The notes beneath the pieces were generated by a model that saw only the letters and a program-made list of their open reading frames with translations, was not told the DNA's origin and did no database searches. Shown here in pieces: positions 1 to 19,144 of a stretch of DNA of 19,144 nt (position 1 is the first letter of the stretch; each line of letters starts with the position of its first letter). The position numbers and the translations under genes are program-made. The DNA comes from Mycoemilia scoparia (taxonomy: Eukaryota > Kickxellomycota > Kickxellomycetes > Kickxellales > Kickxellaceae): NCBI GenBank assembly GCA_027575805.1, contig JANBPU010000294.1, positions 1 through 19,144 of the forward strand, in the 5' to 3' direction.

Positions 1-217
1 CAATAAGAGTTCCATCGTTGATTTGGACTGGAAGGATGTGCTGCTGCTGTTCAGTCGTCTCGCCATTTTTTCCAGAGTTGCTGTAAACCCTGGCATATGC
101 AGAGCGAATGATCGCTGCAACCCCTTCCAATCCTGGGTCATGACGAATTTCCAATGGGAAGTTGAGCACAGGGTCGGCCTGCAGTCCATCAACGTTGAGT
201 TCCTGTTGAAAGTCCAT
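1..217 (-). CDS. 5' end of an unrecognised protein-coding ORF, cut by the window edge
   Basis: On the minus strand an ATG at 217-215 opens a frame of 72 codons that reaches base 1 without a stop. The start context is good (A at -3, G at +4), and no in-frame ATG is seen in the roughly 45 bases upstream that I read. The peptide begins MDFQQELNVDGLQADPVL and has a Q-rich stretch (TTEQQQH) near residue 57. I see no signal peptide, membrane segment or family motif. GC is about 49% (107 of 217 bases counted), clearly above the AT-rich surroundings. That suggests real coding, and either a mobile element or a host gene with different base use. The family is unknown; a retroelement first ORF is possible but nothing seen proves it. 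Confidence 0.55.
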   Translation of the reverse strand, partial: MDFQQELNVDGLQADPVLNFPLEIRHDPGLEGVAAIIRSAYARVYSNSGKNGETTEQQQHILPVQINDGTLI

Positions 218-412
218 TGTGGGCGTAGTGGGTAAAGGATAGAGAATGGGAAAAGCGTGCGTAGGAAGTTACCAATCCTCAAGGGTTACAAGGAAATAAG
301 AACAGCAGTGAACAAGTTATTATTGTGGTAGTGACTGTGATGTCAGACTTAGTTGTGTGTGAGCTTAGAAACAAAGTGTTAAATTTTAGGTGGAACAGTG
401 GCTACCTTTTAT
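218..412. other. Upstream region of the left-edge ORF
   Basis: This is the presumed 5' leader and promoter side of the minus-strand ORF at the left edge. I see no second gene, no clear TATA box at a convincing distance and no LTR boundary. Confidence 0.3.
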
Positions 413-526
413 AGATGGCGGGTTCTTCGCTAAAAGGGAACAGAACACGGATACCCTCGTGCTTCCCTCTAAATCGGCCCATATCCTATACATTTTAGCT
501 GAGGTCTCAGTGATAATAGGCTGGTA
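413..526 (+). repeat. Dispersed repeat family 2, copy A (partial)
   Basis: This segment aligns with 3121-3260 on the same strand. Both begin AGATGGC. Both carry a shared block (here TACCCTCGTGCTTCCC, there TACCCTCATGCCTCCA), followed by a shared CGGCCCATA/TGGCCCATA and TACATTTTAG. The homology ends near GGCTGGTA/TTTTGGTA. I see no coding capacity. It is an old, diverged copy of an uncharacterised short interspersed or MITE-like element. Confidence 0.6.
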
Positions 527-659
527 TCCCAGGTAATATCCTAGTATCCATATAGAAGAAACAACATATACAGGCTATAAATAAAACAATAATCTTTCTA
601 TCTGGAGAGAGCAACATTTACAATAAAAATCTTCAATATCAATTCATAAATTTTTTTGT

Positions 660-735
660 AGATGGCGTGACTGCTTTCATTTGATTAAATATAGCAATCA
701 GCTCCTTTTCATTGCTCTGGAAAAGCACGCCATCT
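660..735. repeat. 76-bp inverted-repeat mini-element
   Basis: A perfect 10-bp terminal inverted repeat, AGATGGCGTG (660-669) and CACGCCATCT (726-735), brackets 56 bp. The arms stay partly complementary further in (GCTTTC against GGAAAAGC). It looks like a very short non-autonomous transposon or an RNA hairpin. Its AGATGGC end is the same as the first bases of dispersed repeat family 2, so it may be an internally deleted member. No other copy of this exact form was noticed. Confidence 0.45.
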
Positions 736-969
736 CAACTGGAAATCAAGCATTGGTATGGTACAACAGCTCACGAATTTACCAAACCTTAGCTGCTATG
801 GTTTTAGAGGTCAAAAGATACGATGAGATAATCCAATAGCCATAATAACTAAAATTTTATAAAAATTCAAATCAACTGGCCCAGTTTTAACAAAAATATT
901 ACAAATGATGCAAAATGCTGTGTTTATAGAATTTTTTATTATACAATTTACGCAAAAGGAATAAACTAG

Positions 970-1090
970 TAAGTGGGTAATGATTTTTGAAGAGTAAACT
1001 TTGGTGGGCAACGAATATGGGGACAGCAATCACAACCAAATGGATGTCCAGTTTTGCTAACATTCACTCTTTAATAACAATCGCACATGT
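970..1090. mobile_element. MITE-like element family 1, copy A
   Basis: About 120 bp with imperfect terminal inverted repeats: left end GTGGGTAATGATTTTTGAAG, right end the diverged complement around 1062-1088. The core CCAAATGGATGTCCAGTT is identical to that in the copy at 1270-1389. There is no ORF. This is the most decayed of three copies in the window. The structure fits a non-autonomous DNA transposon; which superfamily is not determined. Confidence 0.6.
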
Positions 1091-1269
1091 ATTTGATCAC
1101 TAATGAAATTTCACCAGTTGATACACATTTTTGTGTCTAATTGCTTTATAGCCTGATTAATAATTTATACAAGGCTGATCATAGATACGTTGAAATGAAT
1201 ATCCAATGACTATGGTGATAAATCAAGTCTTGACTAACATGACAAGATGGATTCCAAACAAATCTCACC

Positions 1270-1389
1270 ATATGGATCATAATTTTTGAAGGGTGAATTT
1301 TGGGGACCAGTGATTATAGGGGAATCCCAGCCAAATGGATGTCCAGTTGTACTAGTGAACTTTCACCCTTCAAAAATCATCTCCCATAT
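1270..1389. mobile_element. MITE-like element family 1, copy B (best preserved)
   Basis: About 120 bp. The left end ATTTTTGAAGGGTGAA (1282-1297) and the right end TTCACCCTTCAAAAAT form near-perfect terminal inverted repeats that extend outwards to ATATGG (1270-1275) and CCATAT (1384-1389). The core GATTATAGGGG plus GCCAAATGGATGTCCAGTT is shared with the other copies. The outermost bases would allow a TA target duplication, as in Tc1/mariner-type MITEs, but the flanks are too AT-rich to be sure. It has no coding capacity. Confidence 0.7.
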
Positions 1390-1401
1390 AATTATCCAAA
1401 G

Positions 1402-1426
1402 TATATATATATATATATATATATAT
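1402..1426. repeat. (TA)n microsatellite
   Basis: An uninterrupted TA dinucleotide tract, self-complementary, just downstream of the LSM12-like stop codon (gene on the minus strand). Confidence 0.95.
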
Positions 1427-1504
1427 TCAAAAATATAATAATATAAAAATAAAACCTAGGTAGATAATCAAATATACATAGGCTTATAATAAAATTGGCA
1501 GTAG

Positions 1505-2805
1505 TTATACACTGAGTCTATCACGTTCACCTTGCAAAACCTTTTTGACTCGTTCCAAAGTATACTCAGAAGCAGTGTCCTTGAGTTTAGTACAATTTGA
1601 TTGGTGGTAAGGCGACTCAATGACAATCTCGTCCAAAACTATAATCTTGGTTTTATCCCATCGACATGGCAAGCTAGAGAAACATTGCAAATCAAATAGA
1701 TAAGTTATATATACACACATGGGCAAGTATAACAAAACTATTGTTATGTAAATAAACATGTATGTGGATTAGAGAAAAGGAAGGGGAGAGAGAGAGAAAT
1801 GTAGACTTACGTTTTACTTAAGGCGTCAAATATCATTTGTGCAATTTTACTAACGCCAACACCAATCCGACTGCACTTGATATGAGCATCACGAAGAGCA
1901 ATTCGATGCTTGTGGTTGAAAATATAGCTTGGATCGATGGGCTTCAAAGGAGCGCTGATCGCTTTGATAGCAGGAGGAACATTATCATCATTGCTGTTGG
2001 AAGAAGATTCTTTGTTGTTTGAATCAGTGACATCTGCTGCTGCTGTTGTTGTTAAGGAAGACGCTGCAGAAATGACTTTGATAGAATCAATGTGTCGGGT
2101 AAGAATGATATCGACTTTAGAAAGACTATTGTTATTAGTGGAAGTTGTTGATGCCAAAGATGGTGATGGTGATGATGATGACGACGATGGTGAGCTGATC
2201 AAGCAAATGCAACCAGATACAGGATCGAATGTAAATATTTTGCCACTATATACCAAACTGCCATCACCATTGCCGCCGTTGTTGTTGGCCGACTGGCTAT
2301 TGGCAATGTTAAGTTGATTCGAACCGGGCTTTTGATCTTTGCTGTTTAGCGGAGAGGATAAGATGGGATGGGTCTTGATTTCTACGTCCAATCCGATCAA
2401 CTTCTCCAAGATATTGGAAATATTGTTAACAGAAACGGCGGATGCAGTGGTAGTGGCAGAATTATTATTTGCCAATATCGTAGATGAAGTCTTGTTTCCA
2501 GACTTGCTATTGTTATTGTTATTATTATTGTTTTGCTTATTCTTGGAATTATTTCCATTGCTACTACCACCAGCACCTCCGCCATTATTATTTTTCTGAG
2601 TAGATTCGGTTTGTTCTTTGTTGGACCTTTGGGCCGGTGCAGTTGGTTTAGACTGCTGTTGTTGCTGCTGCTGTGGCGAAAGCTTGCTGGAATCTACCGA
2701 TTTGGTCTTTGTAGATTCATTGACATTCTTGTTGGCATTATTATTGCTATTATTGGGCTTGTTGGCGGAACTAAGATGGCGAGTAGCAGCAGCACGGTAA
2801 TCCAT
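1505..2805 (-). CDS. LSM12: LSM12-type protein: Q/N-rich leader, Lsm domain, anticodon-binding-like (AD) domain
   Basis: Two exons on the minus strand: exon 1 at 2805-1811 and exon 2 at 1673-1505, with a 137-nt intron (donor GTAAGT at 1810, acceptor CTCTAG ending at 1674). The product is 387 residues. Residues 1-125 are low complexity: a poly-Q run at 45-51 and poly-N runs around 72-99. The Lsm-like part (about 126-246) is recognisable as a first segment (ILEKLIGLDVEIKT), YSGKIFTFDPVSGCICLISS at 186-205 and KVDIILTRHIDSIKVIS at 230-246, separated by S/N-rich insertions. The C-terminal AD domain (about 286-380) contains KIIVLDEIVIESPY and NCTKLKD after the intron, matching metazoan LSM12 (KNIVVMEEVVITPPY). 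LSM12 proteins bind RNA and partner ataxin-2/Pbp1 in translation and mRNA control. Human LSM12 is about 195 residues and lacks such a leader. The family call rests on the AD domain and is strong; the exact function in this organism is inferred. Confidence 0.87.
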
Positions 2806-3120
2806 AGAATAAATTTAATAGAAGCTGTTTGATTTTAACAAAGGTTATTTGTGTTTGTGGTAGTACTGACAAAAGAAGATATTATTGTTGACAATTACAA
2901 GGGAAATTAGCAACCTGAATGGCAGAGATTGGTGTTGAAGATACTGGAATTCTGGCTATTGTCGATAGTAAAGTTACTGCTATTCAATGCTTATGGGTTT
3001 TAGAAATGATAAAGTTAGAAAACCGTGATTTTGGCCCATGCAGAGTAGTAATAAGGTGACTTGATCAAACTGTGATTTGGGTAGCAGCTACTTAAGGAAA
3101 TAGACACGCTTTCAAAGATC
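2806..3120. promoter_or_regulatory. Presumed promoter and 5' leader region of the LSM12-type gene
   Basis: This is the non-coding stretch upstream of the minus-strand start at 2805. I see no convincing TATA box or other named motif. It is included only because of its position. Confidence 0.3.
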
Positions 3121-3360
3121 AGATGGCAAAATTCCACTAATGACCAAATAACAGGCTCTCCATCCAAAGTGAAAAATCCTGTACCCTCATGCCTCCAGCA
3201 AATTTGGCCCATACCATAAGCCATACATTTTAGGCTGATATTGGAGAGATTATTTTGGTACACAATTAAAAAAGACTCTATCAAATGTATGGCGGGTAGA
3301 AATGGGCCCTCGGGTTTTAACTCGATTACCAATCATTTGATATATGCAACTTCTGGGAAA
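3121..3360 (+). repeat. Dispersed repeat family 2, copy B (longest)
   Basis: The left half (3121-3260) matches 413-526 on the same strand. The start (GATGGCAAAATT) and the right part (3280-3355, with TCAAATGTATG and CATTTGATATATGCAACT) match 16955-16853 on the opposite strand. The three pieces together define one element of at least 240 bp. No ORF makes sense across it, so it is probably non-autonomous. Confidence 0.6.
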
Positions 3361-3659
3361 CCATTTTGCCCAAGGCCTTGTGAACTCTGGCCGAATTATC
3401 ATTTTAATGAGAAAACAACACATGTGGCATATCTAACCACTAGCACCATTCACAATGGAACACAGTAAACAATAAACAGCCATTTTTAGTATGATGCTTA
3501 GCACTCTTAAATTTAGCATAAGCTTTATTTGGAGCCCATAGTTGTTATCAACTAGACAGCCATCTTTTTATCAGCAAACAATAATAATCCGCAATCTACA
3601 TACACACTCATCATTTATTCATAATATTATATACCACCCCTCAAGAATACCCACATAAA
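3361..3659. other. Non-coding stretch upstream of the Gag-like ORF
   Basis: It is AT-rich, with a TATA-like TTATATA at about 3628-3634. That is only about 26 bases before the ATG at 3660, which would leave almost no leader. No repeat arms or LTR were recognised. Confidence 0.3.
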
Positions 3660-4178
3660 ATGTCTCAAAACACCTCTTCAGTGCCCTTTATTTCACAATA
3701 CTCAGATGATAAAAATGGAGATCTGTGGCGCATGATAATGGCTCTTAATGAAAAAATTCTAAAGCTATATGGTGAATATGATTACCCCAATGATGATGAT
3801 GATGTTGATTATGATGACTTTGCCCAAGATATTTATCATCAACGGCAGGAAACATACCAAGATCTTGAGAGCATAGTCGAAATTTGGAAAGATATCAAAT
3901 CCCGAATTAATGAAAAACAACCTTACAAATTGAATCAAACCCAATATCACAATGCAATTACTACATTTGCACAATATCCAGATGAATCTTATGTAGATTT
4001 CTTTGAAAGATATGTGGCATTGTGTAAGCGTGCTCCATACAGAGAGACCGAAAGACAAAGAAACTGTAGATTCATGTCTAGAATTCCCCAAGAGTATAGC
4101 GATATGTTTTTTGAAAGAAACAATAGGATTGCAAACTATAATGTAAAGGGATTTCTTAAATGGCTTGATCGTCAATGA
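3660..4178 (+). CDS. Gag-like protein of 172 residues (possible retroelement capsid remnant or solo gag)
   Basis: An intact single-exon ORF with an ATG start. The N-terminal 40 residues are helical-looking. An acidic stretch follows at 39-57 (four consecutive D, then DVDYDDF). A C-terminal region at about 92-172 has the spacing of Ty3-type Gag capsid sequences: a helix, then YPDESYVDFFERYVALC (106-122), then RQRNCRFMSRIPQEYSDMFF, then a last helix (KGFLKWLD). There is no CCHC zinc knuckle, protease or polymerase after the stop, so it is either truncated or a standalone gag. The downstream decayed copy at 4200-4645 shows that this protein sequence was duplicated. That copy keeps protein-level similarity past the point where this ORF stops, so the ORF may itself be shortened. 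The Gag assignment is inference from pattern; a lineage-specific unknown protein is the alternative. Confidence 0.5.
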   Translation: MSQNTSSVPFISQYSDDKNGDLWRMIMALNEKILKLYGEYDYPNDDDDVDYDDFAQDIYHQRQETYQDLESIVEIWKDIKSRINEKQPYKLNQTQYHNAITTFAQYPDESYVDFFERYVALCKRAPYRETERQRNCRFMSRIPQEYSDMFFERNNRIANYNVKGFLKWLDRQ

Positions 4179-4199
4179 TTTATTTTTGCTGGAGGAGAT

Positions 4200-4645
4200 A
4201 CGCTCCTATACCCAATCAATACTCATGATAGATTTTTTCAAATAACACGACTTCATTTGTTGAAAATCTACTAAGATTAAATATTATTAGCTCCAAACCA
4301 CAATCCAATAACACTAATTCGAGGCTAGTATAAATCATTCATACAATCTGAATATCAAAGAAATACAAGACTCCTGTCTATAATGCCCAAGCACTACAGA
4401 AGGATGTACTTTGAAAAAATTGTAAACTCCATAGTGCTATAATGTAAGAGGATTTGGCAAATTGATAGATAGCCCCGCTAGTTCTCACTTGAAGATGATA
4501 TCTGTAACCTTAGTTTGTGCAATAAGCAGAGGTTCCAAAGATTATGATTGGATATACCAAGTCGGTGTTCCCTTGGTTGAATGAAGAAAAGATCAAGGTA
4601 ATGCTAATAACAATCCAAGACATAATTTAGCTTTTTGAATTGAGA
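4200..4645 (+). pseudogene. Decayed tandem copy of the Gag-like ORF
   Basis: The translated fragment QRNTRLLSIMPKHYRRMYFE (from about 4357) matches QRNCRFMSRIPQEYSDMFFE of the intact ORF at 3660-4178. After a frameshift near 4438, YNVRGFGKLID matches YNVKGFLKWLD. Earlier, bases 4222-4270 resemble the segment encoding YVDFFERYVALC but contain stops. After the match the shifted frame stays open to about 4575 (…GSKDYDWIYQVGVPLVE), then after a stop runs through another 18 or so codons. The copy is broken by at least one frameshift and several stops. It is a pseudogene from local duplication or from a second insertion of the same element. Confidence 0.65.
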
Positions 4646-4741
4646 TCTATTCCCTATCGATTAATTAGTGAAGAATATACCAAACAAAACCATTAATTTT
4701 GCTTCAGTAATAATATGCTTTGCTCAACAAACCAATGTATG

Positions 4742-4774
4742 TATATATATATATATATATGTGTGTGCGTGTGT
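4742..4774. repeat. Compound (TA)n(GT)n microsatellite
   Basis: A TA tract at 4742-4760 runs directly into a GT-rich tract to 4774. Confidence 0.95.
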
Positions 4775-5020
4775 ATAAACTCAAATTTATCTTATATATC
4801 TTTATACAACTTTAAAATTTGAATTATTTGTATACTCGCCCATTAATATTAAATAACACACACACATACTATCAATAAATTCATGAAAAATAAAATAAAC
4901 TATTTCACATGGTAGCGAGTACTATTTTTAACAAACAAAAATGCTAGAGTTAGTAATTTTTTGGGTTAGATTATCACACTTGAATAAAATCACAATTCAC
5001 CCACTTCTTTTACTGATCTA

Positions 5021-5039
5021 TTATTATTATTATTATTAT
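5021..5039. repeat. (ATT)n microsatellite
   Basis: A perfect trinucleotide tract followed by degenerate TTG/TTA repeats. Confidence 0.9.
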
Positions 5040-6329
5040 CACTATCATTGTTATTGTTGTTGTTGACTTGTCTTTATGGATTCGTATCTACAAAAGAGGA
5101 TCTGGATAGAGTTCTTTATTACTATTACTATTACGATTACTATTCATGTGACCAAGTATTAGCAGTAAATTCAAAAGAATCAAGAATTCTAAATCTCTAT
5201 TGTTGTTTTTTTTTGGATTTTCAAAATCTATCTATCTATAAAATAATTTTGACCTGTATTTCCACTTTCTCTCTCTTTCTCTAAAAATAACATCAATTTC
5301 CATATACGATTTTTTGGGGGGATAAAAGAAGAAGAAGAATAAGGAGCAGTAACAAGTTGAGATTTTGAAAAACACTTTAATAAAATGTAAATCAGAAAAA
5401 AAGCCAGATATACATATTATTTAAATGGAAAATTTTGAGAGCAAAATCATGGTATATTGTTTGACATTGGATTTTCTGTTTTCTGTGAATGCTACATTTG
5501 TGAATAGTTTAAACAAAGGTATTAAGAATTTTAAAATTACAATTACAAAATCATGGTCGCTGTTGTTGTTTTAATTGATGTATGTAGTAGTCGCTAATCA
5601 ATAAAAACAACACAGTAAGCCTAGGTATGATATAAAGGGATATAATGTTACCAATATATTGAGACAAATCCCCATTCATTAACATCAACAATGATAGTGG
5701 TGGTGGTAGTAGTAGCAGTATATTATTGAAAATTCTAATAGAAAGTCTACTATATGCTGGATTGTTTTTTGACCCGGATTAGGAAAGTTGTCGGTTGTTT
5801 AATGTTACGAGTGTTATTTACAAAATAGAGTTAATAACTCCCAAGTGATAGTTGTTTCTGTGATAGCAATTGTAGTTTATGATATAATGATTATACAATA
5901 GCGGTTTAATCAAATGTGGTTGTATAATTAGCTTGAACCCAATTCTTTTCCAAAAAAATAATCTCTAAATGCAATCTCAAGTTGCTGAGTTAGCCAACAA
6001 AATTGAAAGATATCGAGAAGGATGGTCCAAGTTGATAATCATTTTAATATTAAGAAATTGTGAAATTAAAATCAAAAAGCCAAAAATTATGTGTAGGTTG
6101 AGATGGGGAAAGGATTAGTATAGACTAAATTTATATTATGGTACGCTTTTTATGGCTGTGGTCTTGAAATATCTGTACTTAATATTCTTGGCATTATAAC
6201 CAAATATAGCATTACGATAGTCTTTACATCTCTTTATAATGAATGGCTTGGTCCAATCCAGAAACCATTAAATAAATGTGTATGGTTTTGACTTAAGTAT
6301 ATGAACCAACGGTCTTCCTCATACCCCAA

Positions 6330-7591
6330 CACCTTGTGATAATTATTACGACTGCAGACATAAATATGGATATGCCAAACTTTCAGCACAAAACAATATT
6401 TATACAAGCCATGTTACACATATAAACCCTTGAAGCGTTTATATAACCTCTCACCACAGTGTATCTCAGCTAGCATAGCTGATATAGAGTTGCTTTAATA
6501 TGTGGTTTACAGGAATCTATGTATAAATACATTTTCACAACCATCCAATCACCCAATTTTGCAGATTTAGAACACAAAAACTGAAATACCACACATTTCT
6601 GAATACTAGTCCAAGAATATTACAAATCCGACCATAGAGACAGCAGTAGCAACCATAACTAGACAATCAAGATACGATCGGATGGCGTACATTTAACGCA
6701 ACCGCAAAAACAACTTTTCAAGGAAACCACAGCTATAATGTTGATATTATTTGGAATGACCAGGATGTACTCTTGTGTTATTCTAATTCCCCTTCTTGTA
6801 TATTCTTTGTGGATTTTTTTTTCATATGGGAACGTTTTGAATCTTTACCAATGTTGGGAAAGCGAAAAAAGCAATGATGAAGGGGAAGGCAAGTTGGGAA
6901 TAGTATTGTTTACATGTTTCAAAAAGAATATCCTAAGCTGGTTTATTTTAGAAGATCATTAAACACAACATCGATCAAGCACACTAATACATTCATTCGC
7001 AAAAAGCTGCAAATTCAAAGAGAATGCATGTAAGCTGCGCAATACCTTGAACACCATCATCATTACCCTCAAGACTTGAAGAACTGTTTCAACAAGTTAG
7101 AGCAAATGAATCGAATCGAATCAAATCGGGAGAGAGATCTGCTTCAAATAGCCATGGATGTATATATTGTCAAATGTATCTCTATTTACCCCCATTATGA
7201 TATCAATAATACAGATATTTATGGCTATGCATTTGGCACTATATGGTCAAAGTTCATAAGGCTTCAGATAAAAAGGGCTCTCAGGAGTAGTTGCATATGA
7301 GATGGCTGGCGATTGGAACAAAACCTGAGGATTCATCTCTACCTACAACATGCTTGGATCCCAAGTGAAGTCTTTCCATATACAGAGTACATCTCTGAAA
7401 ACTCTACAAATATATTCGACTGTGTATCTTTATATAAATCCATATTACTACTATTGTTGGGGGTGAGAACAAAACATGTCTATATACATAATAGTGCTAA
7501 AAAATTCTACAATTGCGCGCATGATTTAACTCAAGTCTTTTTCCGCTTTGTATATAACTTTCTGTTAGCACTTTCAGCTTTGTTGACTTAA
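6330..7591 (+). pseudogene. Decayed coding region of unknown family
   Basis: One reading frame (codons starting at positions such as 6659, 7034 and 7313) runs from 6659 to 7591, 311 codons, with only four internal stops (6875, 6878, 7031 and 7298). About twenty would be expected in non-coding DNA this AT-rich. The translated pieces are protein-like and not low complexity, for example RGRQVGNSIVYMFQKEYPKL, NCFNKLEQMNRIESNRERDL and EQNLRIHLYLQHAWIPSEVF. Upstream (about 6330-6658) plausible coding switches frame, which suggests frameshifts. There is no intact start and no recognisable domain. It could be an old mobile-element ORF or a dead host gene. I do not recognise the family. Confidence 0.42.
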
Positions 7592-8009
7592 TGTTTAAGG
7601 AGAAGCGAGATATAAATGCAAGTAATAAAATGTCAAAGACCTTGAGTAATAATTGCAACATGTTGTCTGTGTATACAGAAGCATATATATTTAAAGAGAT
7701 GGTCATTGTCTGTCTGTCTGTCTATCTGTGAGTAAAGACTGGACAATATTATATTTGGGTTACACAACATCTGAACTTGTTTTCCAAAAATATATATACA
7801 TCTAGATTGTTGGCGCTCACACTTTCTAGAGTGGTGTTTGACTTGTTTATTGACAAATTTCTTTGAATAATAGCTAATCCACAATTAGAAAGTTTTACCT
7901 CGAAATCTTCTCATGCACAAATAGCCTGTTTTGAGTTTTATATGCACGTTTGTGTTTACATTAGTACATCGCTTGTATATATTTTTTTCTAGCCAATCGT
8001 AGGTTTACC

Positions 8010-8052
8010 CTTTTCTTTTCTTTCTTTCTCTCTCTCTCTCTTTCTTTCTTTC
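8010..8052. repeat. CT/TTTC-rich pyrimidine tract
   Basis: About 43 bases of almost pure pyrimidine with a (CT)n core, ending at CAG. It resembles an extended polypyrimidine tract, but no exon follows. Confidence 0.9.
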
Positions 8053-8143
8053 AGTGTACAATTTTCAGATGATGTCCTTTTAATCTTTAGACAGCGTGTT
8101 TATGGATAAAGATGTAGACCAAGTAACACAAAGTTATTCCAAA

Positions 8144-8170
8144 GTGTGTGTGTGTGTGTGTGTGTGTGTG
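8144..8170. repeat. (GT)n microsatellite
   Basis: A perfect GT tract of about 13 units. Confidence 0.95.
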
Positions 8171-8214
8171 AGCGTGGGACCGCTTTAATGTACTTTTTAG
8201 TGGACATGGTTCTC

Positions 8215-8238
8215 ATATATATATATATATATATATAT
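8215..8238. repeat. (AT)n microsatellite
   Basis: A perfect, self-complementary AT tract of 12 units. Confidence 0.95.
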
Positions 8239-8441
8239 TTTAGAATCTAAACTTGACAATGCAAATGCGCAGATACCTTTTATAGGGTTAGATTTTATTC
8301 AACAAAGACCATGAGAATAATAATTATACAACAATAGATGTAAACATCAAACTTTTAAAGTAATATATACTCACAAGGAGCTAGGGTAGGAGTTAGATAA
8401 ATATGGATCTCATTACAAAATTGAATAGAACAAAATCAGTT

Positions 8442-8470
8442 AATCAATCAATCAATCAATCAATCAATCA
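8442..8470. repeat. (AATC)n microsatellite
   Basis: Seven tandem AATC units. Confidence 0.95.
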
Positions 8471-8912
8471 CCTATTGGAAGTCAAAGCGAACTTGACATT
8501 TTTGGCGATGATTTACCTATTGATATCATATATTTGGATACAAAAGGCTGCAAGCAATAAGTAAACCATATATAGACATCCATGCCTTTAATAGATATTT
8601 ACTAGGCGACATTCTATCATTCTATGTTATACATTAATAGATCTCTTGAAAATGCAAGATAAATCGATATGAGGGGTTGCTCCATACGGTCTGTGGGAAC
8701 TTACTCGGTGCCAGGTCTTTGAGTTTAATTTAAACAAATAGGTGTGATCTCAACAGCTTTAATTTACCTATTTACTCCTTTTTTTGAACGCAACTTAAAG
8801 GCAGATCTCCATAGCCTACAAAGAGCTGGAAAAGAGCTTGAACGCTGAATTGGTTTTTCAAAACGTTTTCAATACAAGAATGAATAGCCAAATAAGAACA
8901 AATCCCACACTG

Positions 8913-8932
8913 ATATATATATATATATATAT
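8913..8932. repeat. (AT)n microsatellite
   Basis: A perfect, self-complementary AT tract of 10 units. Confidence 0.95.
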
Positions 8933-10124
8933 TACAACCCAAGAATCTACATAAACAATGATACGCAAAACTTTGATCATAGTTTAGAAAGATATCGAAA
9001 GCGAATAAAAGTTTAGGCAAAACCAGATGAATGAATGTAACAATGAGAAAAGCATCTTTCATGGCTATTTTGGATATGGCATGCATCCATTATGTCTTTA
9101 ACAAAAAAAACATAAATATGCGAAGTGAGGATAAATCAACAGCACCACCACAATCATTATATTCTTTTTCACCACTAAATTTGGTTCCAACGCACTTTAT
9201 TTGTTTGGCTAGTCGGTGATTTGTTTGTTTTGATCGAAGCCACACATAAAAATCCTGCACAATAAACCTTGTTTGTGTAATTTAGCAAAGAAGCAGACAA
9301 GAGAAAAAAGACCGACGTTTATAAAATAATAATAATAATAATAAATGAGAGACAGAACGTGAGGTGGTGGTGGTGGTGGTAGTGTTACACCGAATTAAAT
9401 TTAGTAAAAATATATCAAGTTTATAGACATGTGTACATATCCGAATATTATTCAAAGAAATAAATGCCAAGCAATTATTAATGTAAGGCAAATATCCACA
9501 TCTTGGTTATTTATGATCTAACTTTACTTTATCAGCCACACATATATAATATATATACAATTTGATAATATATTGGTTTTTTCATTTTGAATATCAATAA
9601 TAAATTAGTTAGTGGAGTTCTAAAATATCTTGAGCAACGATGATGATGATGATAATGCAATTGACTTCCACAAAAATGGTATTTGGCTTTGCTCTTATCA
9701 ATGTGACTTGAAATAATGTGGTCAATATGGGAGACCATTTCATGTTCGTATATGCTCAGTTGGTAACAAAGTTATACACAACAACTAGATATTATTGCAT
9801 TGGGTGTTTGTAGGATAATTTATTATCAATACCTTATCGACTAACAATAAAAAGGAATGTGTTTGTACAATTGAGCTAAAGTGTGGCTAATTTGGATATA
9901 GAGAGTGAGAGTGAGAGTGAGGAAGATGGTGGCATCAATGTGCTAAAACTGTTAGAGCCAATATTTGTTATAATGGAGGTGGTATCTGCATCTTATCAGG
10001 ATCCTTTCATAAAATTTCCAAGAATCAAATACATGACAACAATTGTCGCCACACACATTTATCTTCAAACAATATATATTAACCCAAATGTAGAACAGAA
10101 AAGAACAGAATAATAGAAGATTGT

Positions 10125-10127
<3 letters not shown>

Positions 10128-10165
<38 letters not shown>
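10128..10165. repeat. (AG)n microsatellite
   Basis: About 19 uninterrupted AG units, the longest dinucleotide tract in the window. A pure purine/pyrimidine mirror repeat of this kind can in principle adopt triplex structure. Confidence 0.95.
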
Positions 10166-10168
<3 letters not shown>

Positions 10169-10786
10169 GGTAAATTACACAACATGACTATACTTGGTTT
10201 TTTGTTCACTTGTAAAGTTCAAAGAAACTTATTTGGATGTTCCTAAATTCCGCTACTAATTAGTCATGCCACCCCCTACACACACACGCTCACACAAAAA
10301 AATTACTATGTAGGGCTTGCCTTTTGTAAATCAATATAAATGGAAACTATAATGTGTGTGTGTGGGGGCAATGATTTATAATGCCAACAGCAACTACAAC
10401 AACATGATTAATGGTAGCAAGTCTTTAGCACATTATAATCCCAGAAAGTTGGCTTCAAAGGATGATGTGAAAGAAATCCAGACCAAAACAAGGATTAATT
10501 AAACTGCCAACCCTATTAAATGCCTTGACACGAAAATCACGGTTTATATGTATGTATATTTATGTGTGGAGATTTCTTGGCGATAGTGTGTGTGTGTGGT
10601 GGTGGTGATACAAGGTTTGAAAATGACCAGAGTCAGAAATAAAATAGATATTTGTATCACGAGTAAACGAAAAGAAGAAATCTCAGAAAGGATGGAGGAT
10701 GCGAGATAAAGCACAAGACATAATGTTTATAATAGAAAGGAGCTTGAATTTTTTTTGATCTACACTCAAACAATAATAATATTACG

Positions 10787-10822
<36 letters not shown>
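10787..10822. repeat. (ATT)n microsatellite
   Basis: About 12 uninterrupted ATT units. Confidence 0.95.
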
Positions 10823-11450
10823 GTTTTTTTGCTGTTATGTATAAATGCATTAGATGAATCAAAGGAGAGATGCAGAGAGTAATAGGATTTAAAAATGTAT
10901 GGCTAATGTTATACAACATTGATACATTTAAAAGCTGCCATCTGGGTTCTAAACCAAAAAAATGGACACTTAGTGCATTAAGAAAATATATGGACTGGAT
11001 TTACAATCTTGTGTATTTTGTCTTTAATTACATTTCTTTAAAGAACCAAGAAAAAAGTGTCAGGTATCCAAAGAAGACATCTTTGCATTTAGTCAGAAAA
11101 AGAAAGTAAATGTACGTATAAAGTGTGGCTGGATGTCATAAACGTTTATATGGTCTTGGATTTTCATATTTTTGGTTGTAGAGAATACATGATCGTGCGC
11201 TGTGTTAATAAATTTTGGCCTGTTTATTTTGATTTGACTGTTTTTGGACCTTTGGGCTTAATAATGTGGGGTAACCAACAACATTCAAGTCTTAATTGAG
11301 AGTGTATTGGGAAAACAACAAATATATATGTAAGAATATGTGTGGATTCTATCTAATACATATGTATTTGGTTATATGTGTGCAAGAACAGTGAGGTTTA
11401 ATAAGGTCAGTCCAAAATATCAATGTAGTGGTGGTGGCGTTGTCAGCTTA

Positions 11451-11665
11451 TATGGCTTGTGTACAAGTGAGTCCAATGGGTGGATGCAAAAGTAGATTAT
11501 AGGCGATTGGAATTATTTTGAACTATTAATTAGCAAGAACTTGGGTATATGATCAACAGCGGAAACTGGTTTGACATGCATGATTCCCACCAAAAATATA
11601 GGACATTTCGTGAGACTGGATTAGCCTGGTTAAGCAAGCATGGAATCGTCGACCAAATAAACTGA
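11451..11665 (+). pseudogene. Possible Tc1/mariner (IS630-type) transposase remnant, frameshifted
   Basis: Frame one (codons from 11451) gives GDWNYFELLISKNL. A +1 shift near 11534 then gives NSGNWFDMHDSH followed by TGLAWLSKHGI, ending at a stop at 11663. The order and spacing match the middle of Tc1/mariner DDE transposases: a Y-x-E-I/L-L helix, about ten residues, W-x-x-x-Q/H-D-N/S-x-x-H (second catalytic Asp), then a WL-x-x-x-G-I helix. The usual downstream WP-x-x-SPDLNPIE motif is not visible, and no first Asp or terminal inverted repeat was found. It is a short, decayed fragment; the resemblance could be partly chance. Confidence 0.33.
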
Positions 11666-11768
11666 CAATTTACATACACCTTAGCCTTATCATCTTGAAG
11701 TAAATATCATATACAGTATACTAATTTCTTGGCTATAGATAAAGACGACTGACGTTTTGAGGATATAT

Positions 11769-11794
11769 ATATATATTAAATATTTAATATATAT
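11769..11794. repeat. 26-bp perfect AT-only palindrome
   Basis: Centred between 11781 and 11782 on TAAATATTTA, with AT arms on both sides. It could form a cruciform. Low sequence complexity makes a specific role doubtful. Confidence 0.8.
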
Positions 11795-13175
11795 TCCCTG
11801 AGAAAAACCAAAATCAAACAACTAATAAATCCAAGAATATAATCAATGTTAGTATAATTGACATTCTCAACAGACTAAACTATTGTTTAAAGTAATACCA
11901 TGTAGCCATATAAAGACAAGTTGGTTAAATAGTTGGGGATATCAATAATAGAATACTATCACGTTATTCTATTATCCAAACACCTTTCCATTGTATGTAT
12001 ATATAATTTGAATTTTCAGAATACCTCTTTGCTGTTGCTAACAATGTTGTCGTTGTCGTTGTAGCTGTTGTTTCTATTTGTTTGCTAGACCGTTGAGGAG
12101 AGGGATAAACACTTGATGTTTATTGACCAAACAACATTTGATTGGTATTTGACAATTTAGAACACTAAATAACAAAACCAAGAATGCAAATAATGATAAT
12201 AATGTTGGTTTATTGAGTACATGTGATAAATAACAAATTGTGTGTGTGTTGCTTATTTGGTGAAGAGAGGAACCAGTCAAACCAAGCCTAGTATTATTAC
12301 TATTATTATTATTCTGAATTTTCATAATCCAGAGAGCTCAACGAATCGAGTATAAATAAATATATTAGGAATAAAAACACACAAAAATGATATGAATAGA
12401 TAGTACTAATTGTGGTGAGTAATAAATGGACAATGGACTCTATACAAAACTAATCAACAGAATAAACAAACAATAATAATAACGCATGTGCCCAGGTTTG
12501 TATATTTTGCTCTGACCTTTATTTCTTAATAAAAACAATAGACAATCAATATAAAAAAAATATTGTTTACAAGTTAGGCTTGAAGTGCGTGCATGTGTAT
12601 GTTCACTTATTTTTATTTTATTAGGAGCTTCATTTATGTTTATTAAGCACAATTTAGTGCTACACTAATAACAAACACACAATATCCAACACACGTTTAT
12701 TTTGAACTTGCATCGATGGCTTTGGGTTTGTGATCTTTCCCCCCCCCCCACAATTCTGGATGATCCATTATGTTGTCAAACCCAGTGTTTAGATCATACA
12801 CAGACCCCGTCCATTATTTAAATTATCATTGCCATTATTATTGTTGGCGTTTTTTTGTTGTTGTTGTATTTGTAGTAGTAGTAGTAGTTGAGCAATGGTA
12901 GCTGCGGAAGTTACAAAGGGCCAATATTTGGTTTTTATGTTTTTATCATAAACAATGTATAAATATATGTATAATTTGGCCAACTTTTTACAAGGAGATA
13001 TAGTAAAAGATATTACTATTAACAAGAACGTCTCCACATAACATCTACACAATACAAACAGAATGATGATAAGATCAACAATAAAAAACCCATGTTGTTT
13101 TGCCACTTTTGTGGGGAGAATACAAGACAAAGCAATAAAATTATTTTGTTTTTGTTTTTGCTGATAAAGAAATAC

Positions 13176-13191
13176 ATATATATATATATAT
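13176..13191. repeat. (AT)n microsatellite
   Basis: Eight AT units, followed at 13203-13221 by an (ATT)n tract. Confidence 0.9.
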
Positions 13192-13440
13192 TAATCAAAG
13201 CCATTATTATTATTATTATTAAGGCCAAATAAACATTTAAAAGACAAAGGAATCATGGATAAAGAAATTGTGGAGACTCATGAATAAAAATAACAACAAC
13301 AACAATTATAATAATAATAATTGGCGTGAGTACAACTATTAGTAATAAAAAGTGTGGAGTTGTTCATAGTCAATGCCAACCAAAAATAATTAATAAAACA
13401 AAGATATCGGAGGCTGTGTATATATAAGAATATTATATAA

Positions 13441-13592
13441 AATGTGGGCTTTTTTTAACTATGTATACGTATCATAATTTTTGAAAGGCACACCTCCTTT
13501 TGGTGGCTAAAGATTATAGGGGCAATCCCGGCCAAATGAGTGACCTCCTTTTGTTAGTAAATGGTCACACTTCAAAAACAATAGCCCACATG
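13441..13592. mobile_element. MITE-like element family 1, copy C
   Basis: It shares the left arm (ATCATAATTTTTGAA at 13471) and the core GATTATAGGGGCAATCCCGG then CCAAATG with copy B at 1270-1389. The right arm (CACTTCAAAAACAATAGCCC) is an imperfect complement of the left. The outermost TGTGGGCT of the complemented right end is matched at 13443-13450, about 20 bases outside the left arm, so the left side may carry a small insertion. There is no ORF. Confidence 0.65.
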
Positions 13593-14114
13593 GAGGCGTA
13601 AAGCTAAATGATATTATAATACTAATACTAATAGTAATAATAAATAGATAAAGATCGAGTTCAATATACGGATATATGTATGGAGCAACTGTGGAGGTAG
13701 GAAAAGTGGTGGGGATATTCTTTAATAACCTTTATTACACAGAATTTGTTTTCAAATAGACTTTTATTTTTGGATCCACAAAAATAGGACTTTGATCTTC
13801 TTTTTAGAAAACAAAGGCTTGTGTTTTATTTATGCGTAATATTCTTTAGCGGAATTTAGACTAAATCAAGTAGTTGCACAGACACACAGGCATATAAATA
13901 TTTATATGTTATTAAAAGGAATGATAAGACAAGACCATGCTTAAAACAAATGGCTATTGATAGAGGTCTAAAAATGATTGAGGGAAAGATTATTTTTAAA
14001 AGCTGTCTATGCAAATTGGGTAAGTGACAGAGATATAAGAATATCGGTGTGTGTCTATTTATATGGTTTTTTGGAAGTTCTTTTTAGCAAAAGATCAAAG
14101 GAGAAGGCCATTAT

Positions 14115-14138
14115 GAAGGGAAGGGAAGGGAAGGGAAG
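14115..14138. repeat. (GAAGG)n pentanucleotide repeat
   Basis: Nearly five tandem units of a pure-purine pentamer. Confidence 0.9.
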
Positions 14139-15431
14139 AAGATACAAAAGATAGTTGGTTTCTGCATTGCAATAAAAACATAGTGGGCCGTTATCATAAG
14201 TAAGATAAGGAGAGATGGGAATAAAATGATTATGGCTGATCTATTCAGAATTCCATTAGGAAAAAAAGAACCAAAGAAATATTGCGATAATGTTGTTGGT
14301 GAATGGCCATTGTCTCTCTGTAAAACAAGAGTGGCAGTAGTAGTGCTGGGACAGGGATCTGTAGTTTACAACAATGTATTATGTACCCCTGCTGCTCCAT
14401 TTTATTCTTCCTTAGCTGGATCATCTCTGCACATGTTGATAATAACAGCAGTCGCCAAAATAAGGGATAGAGTGCAGTGTGAGATAAATCGAATTTCCGA
14501 ATACAAAAAGGGGGGATTCTCTCTTCTCTCCTTCATTCCCTCAGGCAAAGATGGATAATGCCAACAATAGGAATAGTAGCAACAACAATATATTTTATTG
14601 TTACAATGTAGCGTTGTTGAAAGCATGATCTGCATAAACCAAATAATATGTGGATATTTTCTCTCACATGTGAGTGTATGAATACAAATTCTCGGGCGAG
14701 AGATGAGATGTACCACATGCAATGACCCCTTCATAATAGTAATCTGTCACCTACTACCACCACTGCTACTATTAATTAGGTTGTGACTATCCGTAGTGAT
14801 AAAATACTTAACAGCAGGATTCTTCTTTTTACTCCCACATAATGCGTATAAAGAAAAAGGTGTAGATCTCATGTAAAGCAGTAATATTAAAAACAGGACA
14901 ATCGATGGGCACAGTAAATTCAATAGTATTATTATTATTTTCAAATATCGGTATTTTTGTTTGCGCATTGTGGTAAAACTACCACCAGCACTCTATCTAA
15001 AATAAATTATAGCCTTATCCAGGGGGATGTGTTGAAACAATGCTGAACAAATAAATCTTTTGGATCTGTTTTATTGCCTAGTATTTCTCCGCCAGTTTTT
15101 ATGTCCTCCGACCCTCCGTTAAATCTCTCATTCATTTTACTCAGTCAATTAGTGTGTCTGATACCCAACTAATAACCAATTAATAATAATAACAACAACA
15201 ACAATAATAATAATAATTAAAAACAAAAATATTCCAATAACAAATTTATGTGGGTGTGTGAGAAAAATCTCCAGACGTGACCTGATCACATTGGATTCCC
15301 TGCGTGTAATAGTACATAAAAGAGATTTTTTAACATGTATGTATGCTGAATATACAGAAGCACAATTGATTCAATAAGTCATGAAAGTGAATATTACCAA
15401 AATGAATCCATCCTTTTGTCCTTTAATCTGG

Positions 15432-15452
15432 GTCTGTCTGTCTGTCTGTCTG
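15432..15452. repeat. (CTGT)n microsatellite
   Basis: Five tandem CTGT units. Confidence 0.9.
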
Positions 15453-15546
15453 ATGACAGTTGGGTGCATAGCTATGTATGGGGTCATGTGAATTATAAGT
15501 ATTATCTCCAACTTTTTGCCAATCCAGTCGATATTCTATTACCACT

Positions 15547-15600
15547 GATGCTGCTGCTGCTGCTGTTACTACTACTGCTGCTGCTACTACTGTTGCTGCC
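15547..15600. repeat. CTG/ACT trinucleotide tract
   Basis: Blocks of CTG alternate with blocks of ACT for about 54 bases. Open frames through it encode leucine or alanine runs and are not taken as genes. Confidence 0.9.
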
Positions 15601-16021
15601 AATAAAATATATTTATATGTATGCATATGTTTGTTACTATTGCAAATATAATAGATTAATCAAATAACTTGCTACGTATGTATATGTTCGAATCCCGTTC
15701 TATGATGTTCAACAAATTTGCTGAAAGAGCCCTAGCCTATAAGATCTTTGGGCATACCCATGTGCAGGCTGTGAACATTTCTCTAGGTTGCTATAGTTGG
15801 CTAGATGCATATCAATTTAACCTAAAAGAAAAACTGGTAACCATATTTGTCATATTGATGATATCATTAAATTCCCATTTTCATGTCCCACAAAAACCAA
15901 GTTGTTTAGATTGTAATATTATAGGTATTACAAAAAAACTCAATGTTTATTATAATTAATTTGAGAAAATAAGCCTATAATTATCATTTTACTGTTATAA
16001 TAATAACAATAGTAACAATAG

Positions 16022-16043
16022 TAATAATAATAATAATAATAAT
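16022..16043. repeat. (AAT)n microsatellite
   Basis: A perfect trinucleotide tract, preceded by related AAC/AGT-interrupted units. Confidence 0.9.
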
Positions 16044-16849
16044 CAACTTTCTCTTTATCCACCAACTTCACTTTAATCAAACTCTCACTGGACCTTTCTA
16101 CCCCACTTCACACACCCAAAAAAATCCAAAAAAATCGATCAACAATGAAATAAAGAAAAAATTGTAACTATTGATTTGATTGATGGAATAAAATAATACA
16201 ATAAAAAAGAAGGGAAAATCAATTACTGCAATAAACGAGGACTTGGAAAAAATGTAAAATTACTGACCAAACAACACATACACACGCACACCCATGCATA
16301 TGATTGAATTGATGAGTAAGTGAATAAAAAGGAATTGAATATGTATGTATTGTTCTTTCTATACAAGAGTTTTGTGTGAACAGAATAGTACGTACATATG
16401 AAAGATGTTGTAGTAGTATAATGCCATAAATCTGGATTGATTGATTGATTGAATGGATGGATGAGTGTGGAGTATATAAAAAAGAGACATAGAAAATAGA
16501 GTAGTAGTAGTAGCAGCAGTATAGTATGGCGTATATAGATAGATGGGAGATTGAGGCGTTTAGCCTCCTCCATCACCTCTAACTAAACCTCTGACAAAAT
16601 TGGCAACTGGGTGGGTGAGGCAAACGAGGATTTAAGAAGGAGGCGTTCAAGAAACCAACATACTCATATGTTTTGGGTATTTGACCAAAATCTCGCCCAT
16701 TTTTTTTCGTGATGATCTGTGGCAAAAAAAGAGCGGTAGCTCATAGAAAGATTGCCTTCATACAGAAATTCAATCCAGTATATGATATGATCAAAGTCCA
16801 TGTGGTCCTGGGCAAAAATGTGCCTCCAAAGTTTCAAATGTAATGCCCC

Positions 16850-16955
16850 TCCCCCTCTCAAGAGTTGCATATCAAATGACTGGTGGCTGGGCCAAAATCT
16901 GAGAACCAAAAAATGTCTATCATACATTTGATCCCAAATGAAATTTTGCCATATA
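16850..16955 (-). repeat. Dispersed repeat family 2, copy C (inverted)
   Basis: The reverse complement begins ATATGGCAAAATTTCATT (compare AGATGGCAAAATTCCACT at 3121). It continues with ATCAAATGTATG and CAGTCATTTGATATGCAACT, both matched in order at 3280-3352. The middle is poorly conserved. The flank down to about 16660 may belong to the same element but I could not align it. Confidence 0.5.
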
Positions 16956-17212
16956 TCAATTTGGTAATAATAATGTAATATAAATTAAGTGCTTTAAAAG
17001 AAGGACTTGAAATCCAAAGTTTTATTTATGTATTTTTCCATTTATTTGTTTCATTTCTTATAAAATATATATCTAAATAGCAAGGCCATGAAAAAATAAA
17101 ATGTATTTGTGTATGTGCACTATAACAGATTCAAAGCCAAAAACCAATTCTGTATTTAAGGTATTTTGAAAATACCCAAACAGATCTCTCTCGCATACAT
17201 ACATACACAGGC
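16956..17212. other. Presumed 3' region of UBC9, downstream of its last exon (minus strand)
   Basis: Reading leftward from the stop codon at 17213, this is the expected 3' untranslated side. AATAAA-type signals on the minus strand occur at TTTATT near 17022-17030 and 17041-17046. It contains no other gene. Confidence 0.4.
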
Positions 17213-17279
17213 TTAATCAGATGGAGTGAAATCCTTGGCTTGTTTTCTAATTCGCTTTTCATAGGCAACCTTGTCCTTC
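17213..17279 (-). CDS. UBC9: Detached last exon (exon 7) of UBC9, on the opposite strand
   Basis: Reading the minus strand, an acceptor (…CATTCTTAG, AG at 17281-17280) is followed by G and 21 codons then TAA (17215-17213). The peptide KDKVAYEKRIRKQAKDF plus TPSD is the UBC9 C-terminal helix (fission yeast Hus5 has KDKVEYEKRVRAQA). The exon starts in phase 2, and the plus-strand exon 6 ends with AG at 19086, so AG+G makes Arg138 and the joined protein is 159 residues, the normal family length. No other UBC9 exon lies near it on the minus strand. Its upstream intron half reaches an (AT)n tract at 17334-17355. It is a genuine part of the same gene placed in the wrong orientation, by misassembly or by inversion. 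Confidence 0.93.
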
Positions 17280-17820
17280 CTAAGAATGTTAACAAATATT
17301 ACTATGTAATTAGCAAAACTTCTAATAACAATCATATATATATATATATATATATTTAACATGTAGTGATAGTAGTAGTATTCATTACATCATCATAATT
17401 TATAGTTGGTTGAAATTTAGATCAGAGCGAAAGATACTTGAATCATAGAAATAAGGGTTATTGATACTGCTGCTGTGCTTGTTATTGACATCCCAATTTT
17501 AAATGCGCTCTAGATATCAGCACCCCTTTCTTCTTCTTTTTTGTTTCCAGGAAATTCCATAATTCGTTTAAATAACAAAACTATTATGAAATAATATAAT
17601 AATTAATATTTGTATGTTTGTGTACGCGTTAAATAGTAGAAGATGATTAGGCTTTTTTTTATTACTCCTAGGGAGGTAGCTAGCTAGCTGTATCACGTCA
17701 AATGATAGAAAAAAAATCCAAATTTGTATATTATCCCATAATAACCTATCAATAATTTTATTAAACAGATGTCATGTTTATTATGTAAACACTGGGCTTC
17801 TATCTTCAAAAAAACAGAAA
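17280..17820. other. Half-intron with an AT tract, then non-coding DNA between the two UBC9 parts
   Basis: 17280-17333 is the 3' half of UBC9 intron 6 (minus strand). 17334-17355 is an (AT)n tract. The remainder shows no exon on either strand; I specifically looked for further UBC9 exons and found none. Confidence 0.6.
17334..17355. repeat. (AT)n tract, left inversion joint in UBC9
   Basis: Eleven AT units, equal to their own reverse complement. It is the matching partner of the tract at 19099-19114. The apparent change of strand of UBC9 happens here. Confidence 0.9.
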
Positions 17821-18074
17821 CGAAATTGTTTATTCAATCTTCTCGATACTTTATATAATATACTCTTTATCCTCCCTCCTTCTCCCTCCTACACCCACAC
17901 ACACATTTGTTTAACTACCAACAGTAAAAATAATAATATAGAAACAAGCTTGACTTGCTCTGTTTTTACTAGTCTAATTCACACTTTTCAAAACATTTAC
18001 ACAAAAACACCGTCTGCCTACCTACCTATAAGTCTTCTGCTATCCACAAAAAATAAACCACAGCTAAAATAAAA
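17821..18074 (+). promoter_or_regulatory. Probable UBC9 core promoter and 5' leader
   Basis: A TATA-like TTATATAATA lies at 17851-17860, followed by a pyrimidine-rich block (about 17864-17893, CTCCCTCCTTCTCCCTCC) of the kind often found before fungal transcription starts, then A/C-rich leader sequence up to the ATG at 18075 (context AAAA before ATG). The position relative to the certain start codon supports the call; no factor-binding site is claimed. Confidence 0.45.
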
Positions 18075-19086
18075 ATGTCGAACATCTGTTTGAGTCGTTT
18101 GATGGAAGAGAGAAAACAATGGCGTAAAGATCATCCATTTGTAAGTACTGGTATTTTGAGCTATCTATATAACGAAAATGTAACTATGTATTTTTGTGAA
18201 ACTTACTTACAATACTGATAATGAAATTGTAAATAGGGATTTTATGCTAAACCTGGCAAAACACCTAACGGTCAATTAGACTTATTGAATTGGGAATGTG
18301 GTATTCCTGGCAAAAAGGATGTAAGTTTATTGTGTGTGTGTGTGTGTGTGAAAGAAAAGAAGCTTGAGCTTCTAAATATACGTATATATATATATATATA
18401 TATTAATGTGCCAATTTATTTTGGTTATGCAAATCATGGATTTTTACTAACCCTACATAACTACTTTTATTATTACAACCATTCGTATTTAAGACTCCAT
18501 GGGAAGGTGGTGTTTACAAATGTTCTTTAATCTTTCCTGACAGTAAGTAGTGGTAAACTATCCAATTGCGGCGTATAAATAATATTGTTATTATTAAAAA
18601 ACAAAGATATTGAATTTAATCAATAAATCCATTATTATTATTATTATAGCATATCCTGCTAAACCGCCCAAATGTAAGTATATCACACAATTGACATCAA
18701 ATAAGAATGATCTCTGACAAAGCGGTGGCGAGATTATATATAGTATAGCTATAATTACTAAAATAAACTAAACTATATCGATTAATAATATAATAGGCCA
18801 ATTTCGTCCACCCATTTTCCATCCAAATGTATTTCCGTCTGGTACTGTCTGTTTGTCGATATTGAATGAAGATAAGGGTTGGAAACCAGCCATCACAATG
18901 AAACAAGTAAGCAAGAATTGTTTTGCTATTGAAAAAGTTCCACGCTAAAGATAATGATAACAAAGAACAGCCAACTGATATTATTTGTTTTTATTTTCAT
19001 GAGTAGATTCTTTTGGGTGTTCAAGATTTATTGAATGAACCAAATAATTCTGATCCAGCTCAAAGTGATGCCTATCATCTCTACAG
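18075..19086 (+). CDS. UBC9: UBC9, SUMO-conjugating enzyme E2, exons 1-6 (residues 1-137)
   Basis: UBC9 takes SUMO from the E1 as a thioester and transfers it to target lysines. Exons: 18075-18140, 18237-18320, 18494-18542, 18650-18673, 18797-18906 and 19007-19086. Introns are 96, 173, 107, 123 and 100 nt, all GTAAG…AG. The start gives [16 protein letters not shown], aligned without offset to human and yeast UBC9. Visible residues are HPN at 83-85, the catalytic Cys93 in SGTVCLSI, and Asp127 in SDPAQ, all at the family positions. Lys14 and His20 are also present. Position 87 is Phe where human and yeast enzymes have Tyr. The coding sequence ends at a donor (AG|GTAAAT) with 22 residues missing. 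The missing exon is found inverted at 17213-17279. Exon 4 is only 24 nt. Identity is certain; the intact state of the locus is not. Confidence 0.97.
18331..18350. repeat. (TG)n microsatellite in UBC9 intron 2
   Basis: Ten TG units just after the donor. It and the AT tract at 18383-18402 make this the longest intron of the gene. Confidence 0.9.
18383..18402. repeat. (TA)n microsatellite in UBC9 intron 2
   Basis: Ten TA units. The exons on both sides keep the same strand, so this AT tract is not a rearrangement joint. Confidence 0.9.
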
Positions 19087-19144
19087 GTAAATATCAATAT
19101 ATATATATATATATATTGATATTTACCTGTAGAGATGATAGGCA
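19069..19144. repeat. Perfect 76-bp palindrome at the window end
   Basis: The arm 19069-19098 (last 18 bases of UBC9 exon 6 plus the first 12 bases of intron 6) is repeated exactly as its reverse complement at 19115-19144, around a 16-bp AT core (19099-19114). The right arm therefore holds an antisense piece of a conserved exon. Its end coincides exactly with the end of the window. Confidence 0.97.

Follow-up and report, generated by a model that had tools for sequence, protein, structure and literature searches.

A UBC9 gene split between strands in Mycoemilia scoparia is most probably an artefact of assembly or library preparation at palindromic AT tracts

The UBC9 gene of Mycoemilia scoparia raised a question of gene order: its exons 1–6 were read from the plus strand, and its last exon was read from the minus strand, upstream of the other six. 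Was this the layout in the organism, or was it made when the DNA was prepared or assembled? The window analysed here (positions 1–19144) was the entire contig C217 of an assembly composed of 21,160,063 bases in 466 contigs. Two further open frames were seen in the window: (i) a 196-codon frame at 3588–4178 (+), with a weak match to retrotransposon gag (E 3.5e-4; 21.2 bits, below the curated cut-off of 24.1), and (ii) a 335-codon, N- and S-rich frame at 1807–2814 (−), whose end weakly matched an anticodon-binding (AD) domain (E 4.9e-4; 20.5 bits against a cut-off of 23.4, and thus below it) and which may be one exon within a larger gene.

UBC9 exons 1–6 spanned 18075–19086 (+), as judged from an open spliced frame, a UQ_con match, and protein relatives, and they were located at 18075–18140 (exon 1), 18237–18320 (exon 2), 18494–18542 (exon 3), 18650–18673 (exon 4), 18797–18906 (exon 5), and 19007–19086 (exon 6). 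Introns 1–5 were all of the GT..AG type and measured 96, 173, 107, 123, and 100 nt, respectively; the spliced frame of 413 nt (137 codons plus 2 nt) contained no stops. The encoded protein matched Pfam UQ_con with an E value of 9.1e-44 and 148.9 bits against a curated cut-off of 27. Among the best 120 of 2292 protein matches, the top identity was to Furculomyces boomerangus (80%), with Coemansia sp. RSA 2049 at 79% and Smittium megazygosporum at 77%; the specific names in these 120 were UBC9, Hus5, UBE2I, or hus5-like, and the remainder were generic or unnamed.

UBC9 exon 7, the last exon, was located at 17279–17213 (−): it was immediately preceded on the minus strand by a TTAG acceptor, its splice phase fitted that of exons 1–6, and it read 1 nt finishing the split codon, then KDKVAYEKRIRKQAKDFTPSD (21 residues), and then a stop. 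When this 21-residue peptide alone was searched against PDB chains at E values up to 10, 22 matches were returned, all of them UBC9/UBE2I under names that we take to be synonyms of UBC9, with E values from 0.0084 (best) to 0.15 (worst) and with 21 of the 22 extending to the last residue of the chain; each match was weak individually, and thus the unanimity of the 22 was the evidence. The peptide also aligned to the C-terminal part of 11 out of 11 fungal UBC9 proteins (hand-picked among the 120 listed), starting from residues 138–144 of 157–159. A sequence-only reading had joined the two halves in exact phase and to the full length of the family; the spliced frame and the completed split codon bore out the former, and adding that codon and the 21 residues of exon 7 to the 137 codons bore out the latter, giving 159 residues, the same as P0001 and P0003. 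Exons 1–6 and exon 7 were accordingly predicted, by sequence comparison, to encode the SUMO-conjugating enzyme UBC9, nearer to UBC9/Hus5 than to other E2 enzymes. The gene resembled UBC9/Hus5 of the compared relatives, presumably all Kickxellomycotina fungi, in its identity of 77–80% and in the match of exon 7 to their C-terminal parts, and it differed in its layout on the contig alone.

A separate UBC9 copy, which would have spoken against the sequence-only reading, was sought across the assembly with the protein of exons 1–6, and none was found: the search gave 17 matching places, of which five were the exons on this contig (88–100% identity) and 12 lay elsewhere at only 26–53% identity, and the latter were thus taken as other E2 enzymes. 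A UQ_con search of the assembly gave 21 matches counted by exon. The UBC9 exons were confined to this contig, and the gene appears to be single-copy in an assembly whose shortest contig met was 11,869 bases and from which small contigs, and hence another copy, may be missing.

The 3′ part of intron 6 (54 nt, with the acceptor TTAG) was located at 17280–17333 (−), and it was bordered by an (AT)11 tract at 17334–17355, self-complementary as described earlier, which formed the left joint, presumably a false one, between the left block and a flipped block. The flipped block (17356–19096, 1.74 kb) comprised the UBC9 upstream region, exons 1–6, and the first 10 nt of intron 6, and, as judged from the orientation of exon 7, it would be in the wrong orientation relative to 17213–17333. 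Routed through one AT tract, intron 6 was computed to measure 84–86 nt, in line with the 82–88 nt estimated before. The DNA around the left joint matched nothing in the assembly but this contig, its AT tract matching itself, in a search that skips simple repeats.

The right AT tract, previously placed at 19099–19114, in fact ran from 19097 to 19116, and it was the centre of a 76-bp palindrome that had gone unmentioned: the last 76 bases of the contig (19069–19144) were identical to their own reverse complement at 76/76 bases. This foldback terminus was composed of 28 nt (the exon 6 end and GTAAATATCA), (AT)10, and the reverse complement of those 28 nt, the second foldback arm (19117–19144, −) thus presenting the exon 6 end and the donor site again in reverse. 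The 28 nt of the second arm are the sequence expected straight after the left AT tract. In the same kind of search (simple repeats skipped), the DNA of the palindrome had no match beyond this contig. Since the window was the whole contig and the palindrome reached its last base, the contig turns back into its own sequence and ends there. A simple inversion predicts the old neighbour or the new flank after the second tract, and the contig shows exon 6 instead; therefore, the right feature is a foldback and not a second breakpoint, and the true right flank of the block 17356–19096 is absent from the contig. The inverted block proposed from about 17356 to 19098 was accordingly retained as regards its orientation relative to exon 7, and its right end was reassigned from a second joint to a contig-end foldback.

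The 28-nt exact arms flanking the AT tract are not due to chance, because the longest perfect palindrome in 200,000 bases of 20 other contigs was 28 nt in all. Eight AT tracts of at least 16 nt (the two joint tracts included) were present in the 19,144 bases of the window, against nine in the 200 kb of 20 other contigs; the eight totalled 164 bases, or 0.86% of the window, and it is thus improbable that two random breakpoints would both fall inside them. The position of both joints in AT tracts fits a graph artefact and fits AT-mediated recombination too, and it therefore has no power to separate the two. As to overall composition, the AT-tract density of the window was about nine times that of the 200 kb from 20 other contigs, and its G+C was below that of most stretches compared; the stretch most distant from the window in tetranucleotide make-up was C343 (L040 1–10000; r 0.598, G+C 0.435), which may be of other origin.

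The sample of contig ends comprised 140 of 932 ends in runs of contig numbers (a non-random choice), two of which were this contig's own and two of which were masked. A terminal foldback was sought at the 137 other readable ends, and none was found. The next-longest terminal palindromes among the sampled ends were 22 nt (the (AT)11 end of C230) and then 8 nt, and short non-terminal palindromes were found 4 nt from the start of C38 (18 nt) and deeper inside the start of C213 (22 nt). A systematic foldback defect at contig ends was rejected as an explanation, since solely the right end of this contig, among the 140 sampled, had a long terminal palindrome; this rarity (0/137 others) counts against the artefact reading. 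The left end of the window was considered as a joining partner and dropped, having no other match in the assembly. The end of C230 (L113 4478–4500) stopped within a 23-nt AT tract, as an orphaned right flank of the block should, and was the sole such end of the 140 sampled; it likewise had no other match in the assembly, and the last 4.5 kb of C230 contained one open frame of at least 120 codons, namely 269 codons. This end is a possible home of the missing right flank, and nothing links C230 to UBC9.

Four pairs of sampled ends shared at least 20 identical terminal bases (77, 76, 36, and 35, respectively), and head-to-tail overlaps of at least 20 between different contigs were absent among the sampled ends. 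The pair sharing 77 was C7 and C338, and, used as a query, the C7 start hit a single other contig start, over 77 nt. A search was also made with the final 150 bases of C340, selected for its 76-nt pair; this end (L057 329–405) lay in a dispersed repeat where many contigs run in and stop, and its search, with 40 of 374 candidates scored, gave at least 41 matches including the query. Among the matches listed, the C340 end shared 74–77 nt with 13 other contig ends: in 11 the match opened with the first base of another contig, and in two it extended to a known last base (C344 and C19; 76 nt). The overlap lengths were 77 in three, 76 in six (the mode), 75 in one, and 74 in three, with identity of 100% in 12 and 99% in one; two further matches started at base 2, and at least one match (C226) was internal to its contig. 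From graph theory, we infer that many, not all, contigs break off some 76 bases after entering a repeat, which is the behaviour expected of a de Bruijn graph with k = 77; where a contig in such a graph runs into the reverse complement of itself, a terminal palindrome of about 76 nt is to be expected, as was seen here. The palindrome length agrees with a terminal overlap of 76 in 6 of 13 ends; the overlaps were non-uniform, and the pairs sharing 36 and 35 are at odds with an overlap of constant length and may represent repeat copies that have diverged. This non-uniform footprint, together with the choice of the C340 query for its 76-nt pair, also counts against an artefact.

A word (k-mer) test was run by script on the contig from 16000 to its end, against the ordinary order of left block, AT tract, reversed block, AT tract, and flank; the test assumes AT tracts of 20–80 nt at both joints, including the outer side of the block in the true order. 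The contig needed no novel words over the ordinary order at k = 15, 17, 19, 20, and 21; novel words first appeared at k = 22 (1–3) and numbered 81–86 at k = 77. For a control chimera made by joining unique sequence 60 bases off on either side, the novel words numbered 13 at k = 15 and 29 at k = 31. A threshold at k = 21 is consistent with a foldback centre of 20 nt. A small-k graph (k ≤ 21) is enough to make this contig, which is sufficiency and not proof of cause. The 81–86 novel words at k = 77 imply that the joints were carried over from smaller k, were the product of gap closing, or were present in chimeric reads.

Taken together, the split UBC9 very probably arose as an artefact of assembly or library preparation at palindromic (AT)n tracts, and the gene in the organism is most likely an ordinary seven-exon, minus-strand gene with an intron 6 of about 84–86 nt that contains an (AT)n tract. 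The preference for misassembly at palindromic AT repeats over a real inversion or trans-splicing, expressed earlier from the bare sequence, gained support from the 76-bp palindrome, the overlaps of 74–77 nt, and the sufficiency of k ≤ 21. Because (AT)n is its own reverse complement, an assembly graph can exit the tract in either orientation. The assembly path would have entered the left AT tract and traversed the 1.74-kb block in the wrong direction; it would then have met the intron-6 tract from the opposite side, folded into exon 6, and ended after 28 nt. The software step that would produce the flip is one that we infer; alternatively, self-priming while the library was prepared or amplified might have produced the foldback as a chimeric molecule. 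In our judgement, software collapse at small k carries about two thirds of the weight and a chimeric molecule about one third.

Foldback or palindromic contig ends occur in de Bruijn graph assemblies, and the present case is alike in its perfect terminal palindrome, the length of which matches the terminal overlap of other ends (76). An odd k is chosen so that no k-mer equals its own reverse complement, according to a passage of PMC6061703; words of length k − 1 and k + 1 can, by simple reasoning, still be self-complementary at odd k. For another insect-gut fungus, a section of PMC12611240 gives a SPAdes run with k of 21, 33, 55, and 77 and an Illumina assembly of 21,012,904 bases in 1,898 contigs, as compared to 466 contigs here. 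As for the chimeric-molecule route, inverted-repeat or palindromic sequences yield chimeric reads during fragmentation and end repair (in the excerpt of PMC10908179), and whole-genome amplification produces palindromic chimeras (in the excerpt of PMC6218980); the likeness lies in the palindromic product, and the difference lies in the 137 other readable ends without a foldback. The literature search found no paper on the AT-tract foldback case and nothing describing this locus.

Three biological readings were weighed against the artefact. UBC9 is an essential gene in yeasts, and a real inverted duplication, in which two copies of the 1.74-kb block would face each other head to head across the AT tract as a near-perfect palindrome, with one copy of exons 1–6 in line with exon 7 and intron 6 larger by about 1.8 kb, would place a long perfect palindrome within an intron of this gene, the other introns of which were just 96–173 nt. 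It would supply real reads over both joints, which the artefact must take from small k or from chimeras; a true long-armed palindrome could likewise leave an exact 76-nt palindrome at the end of a k = 77 contig, and the single copy seen in the assembly is compatible with it, since the two copies would collapse to one in short reads. An extra copy is, however, unnecessary at k ≤ 21, and we consider the duplication improbable. Lower still is the probability of a real simple inversion of 17356–19096 between AT tracts, which would have broken UBC9 or left its function to a second locus: recombination or repair can act at such tracts, and both breakpoints lie within them despite the small share of the window that they occupy, but the new flank predicted after 19116 was replaced by reversed exon 6 and then the contig end, and the second UBC9 was not found among the 12 matches on other contigs at 26–53% identity, small contigs being possibly missing from the assembly.

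Trans-splicing of two opposite-strand transcripts into UBC9 deserves hardly any credence. The splice sites and the phase match exactly, as this reading demands, but an ordinary cis gene would, once flipped, be just as likely to show the same match in phase, and the contig end is explained without it. The corresponding view of the layout as real, namely a single-copy UBC9 with exons 1–6 and the last exon on opposite strands and trans-spliced, perhaps via pairing of the AT halves of intron 6, is given the same scant credence. If that layout was true, it would represent a fungal nuclear housekeeping gene that is trans-spliced from opposite strands.

With the artefact as the preferred reading, the split UBC9 is, as biology, most likely nothing. 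Its meaning is that of a caution: a single (AT)n tract in an intron is able to turn 1.7 kb of a contig around, so that a conserved gene seems broken, lost, or trans-spliced, and a terminal palindrome of the overlap length of the assembly is a quick test for such flips.
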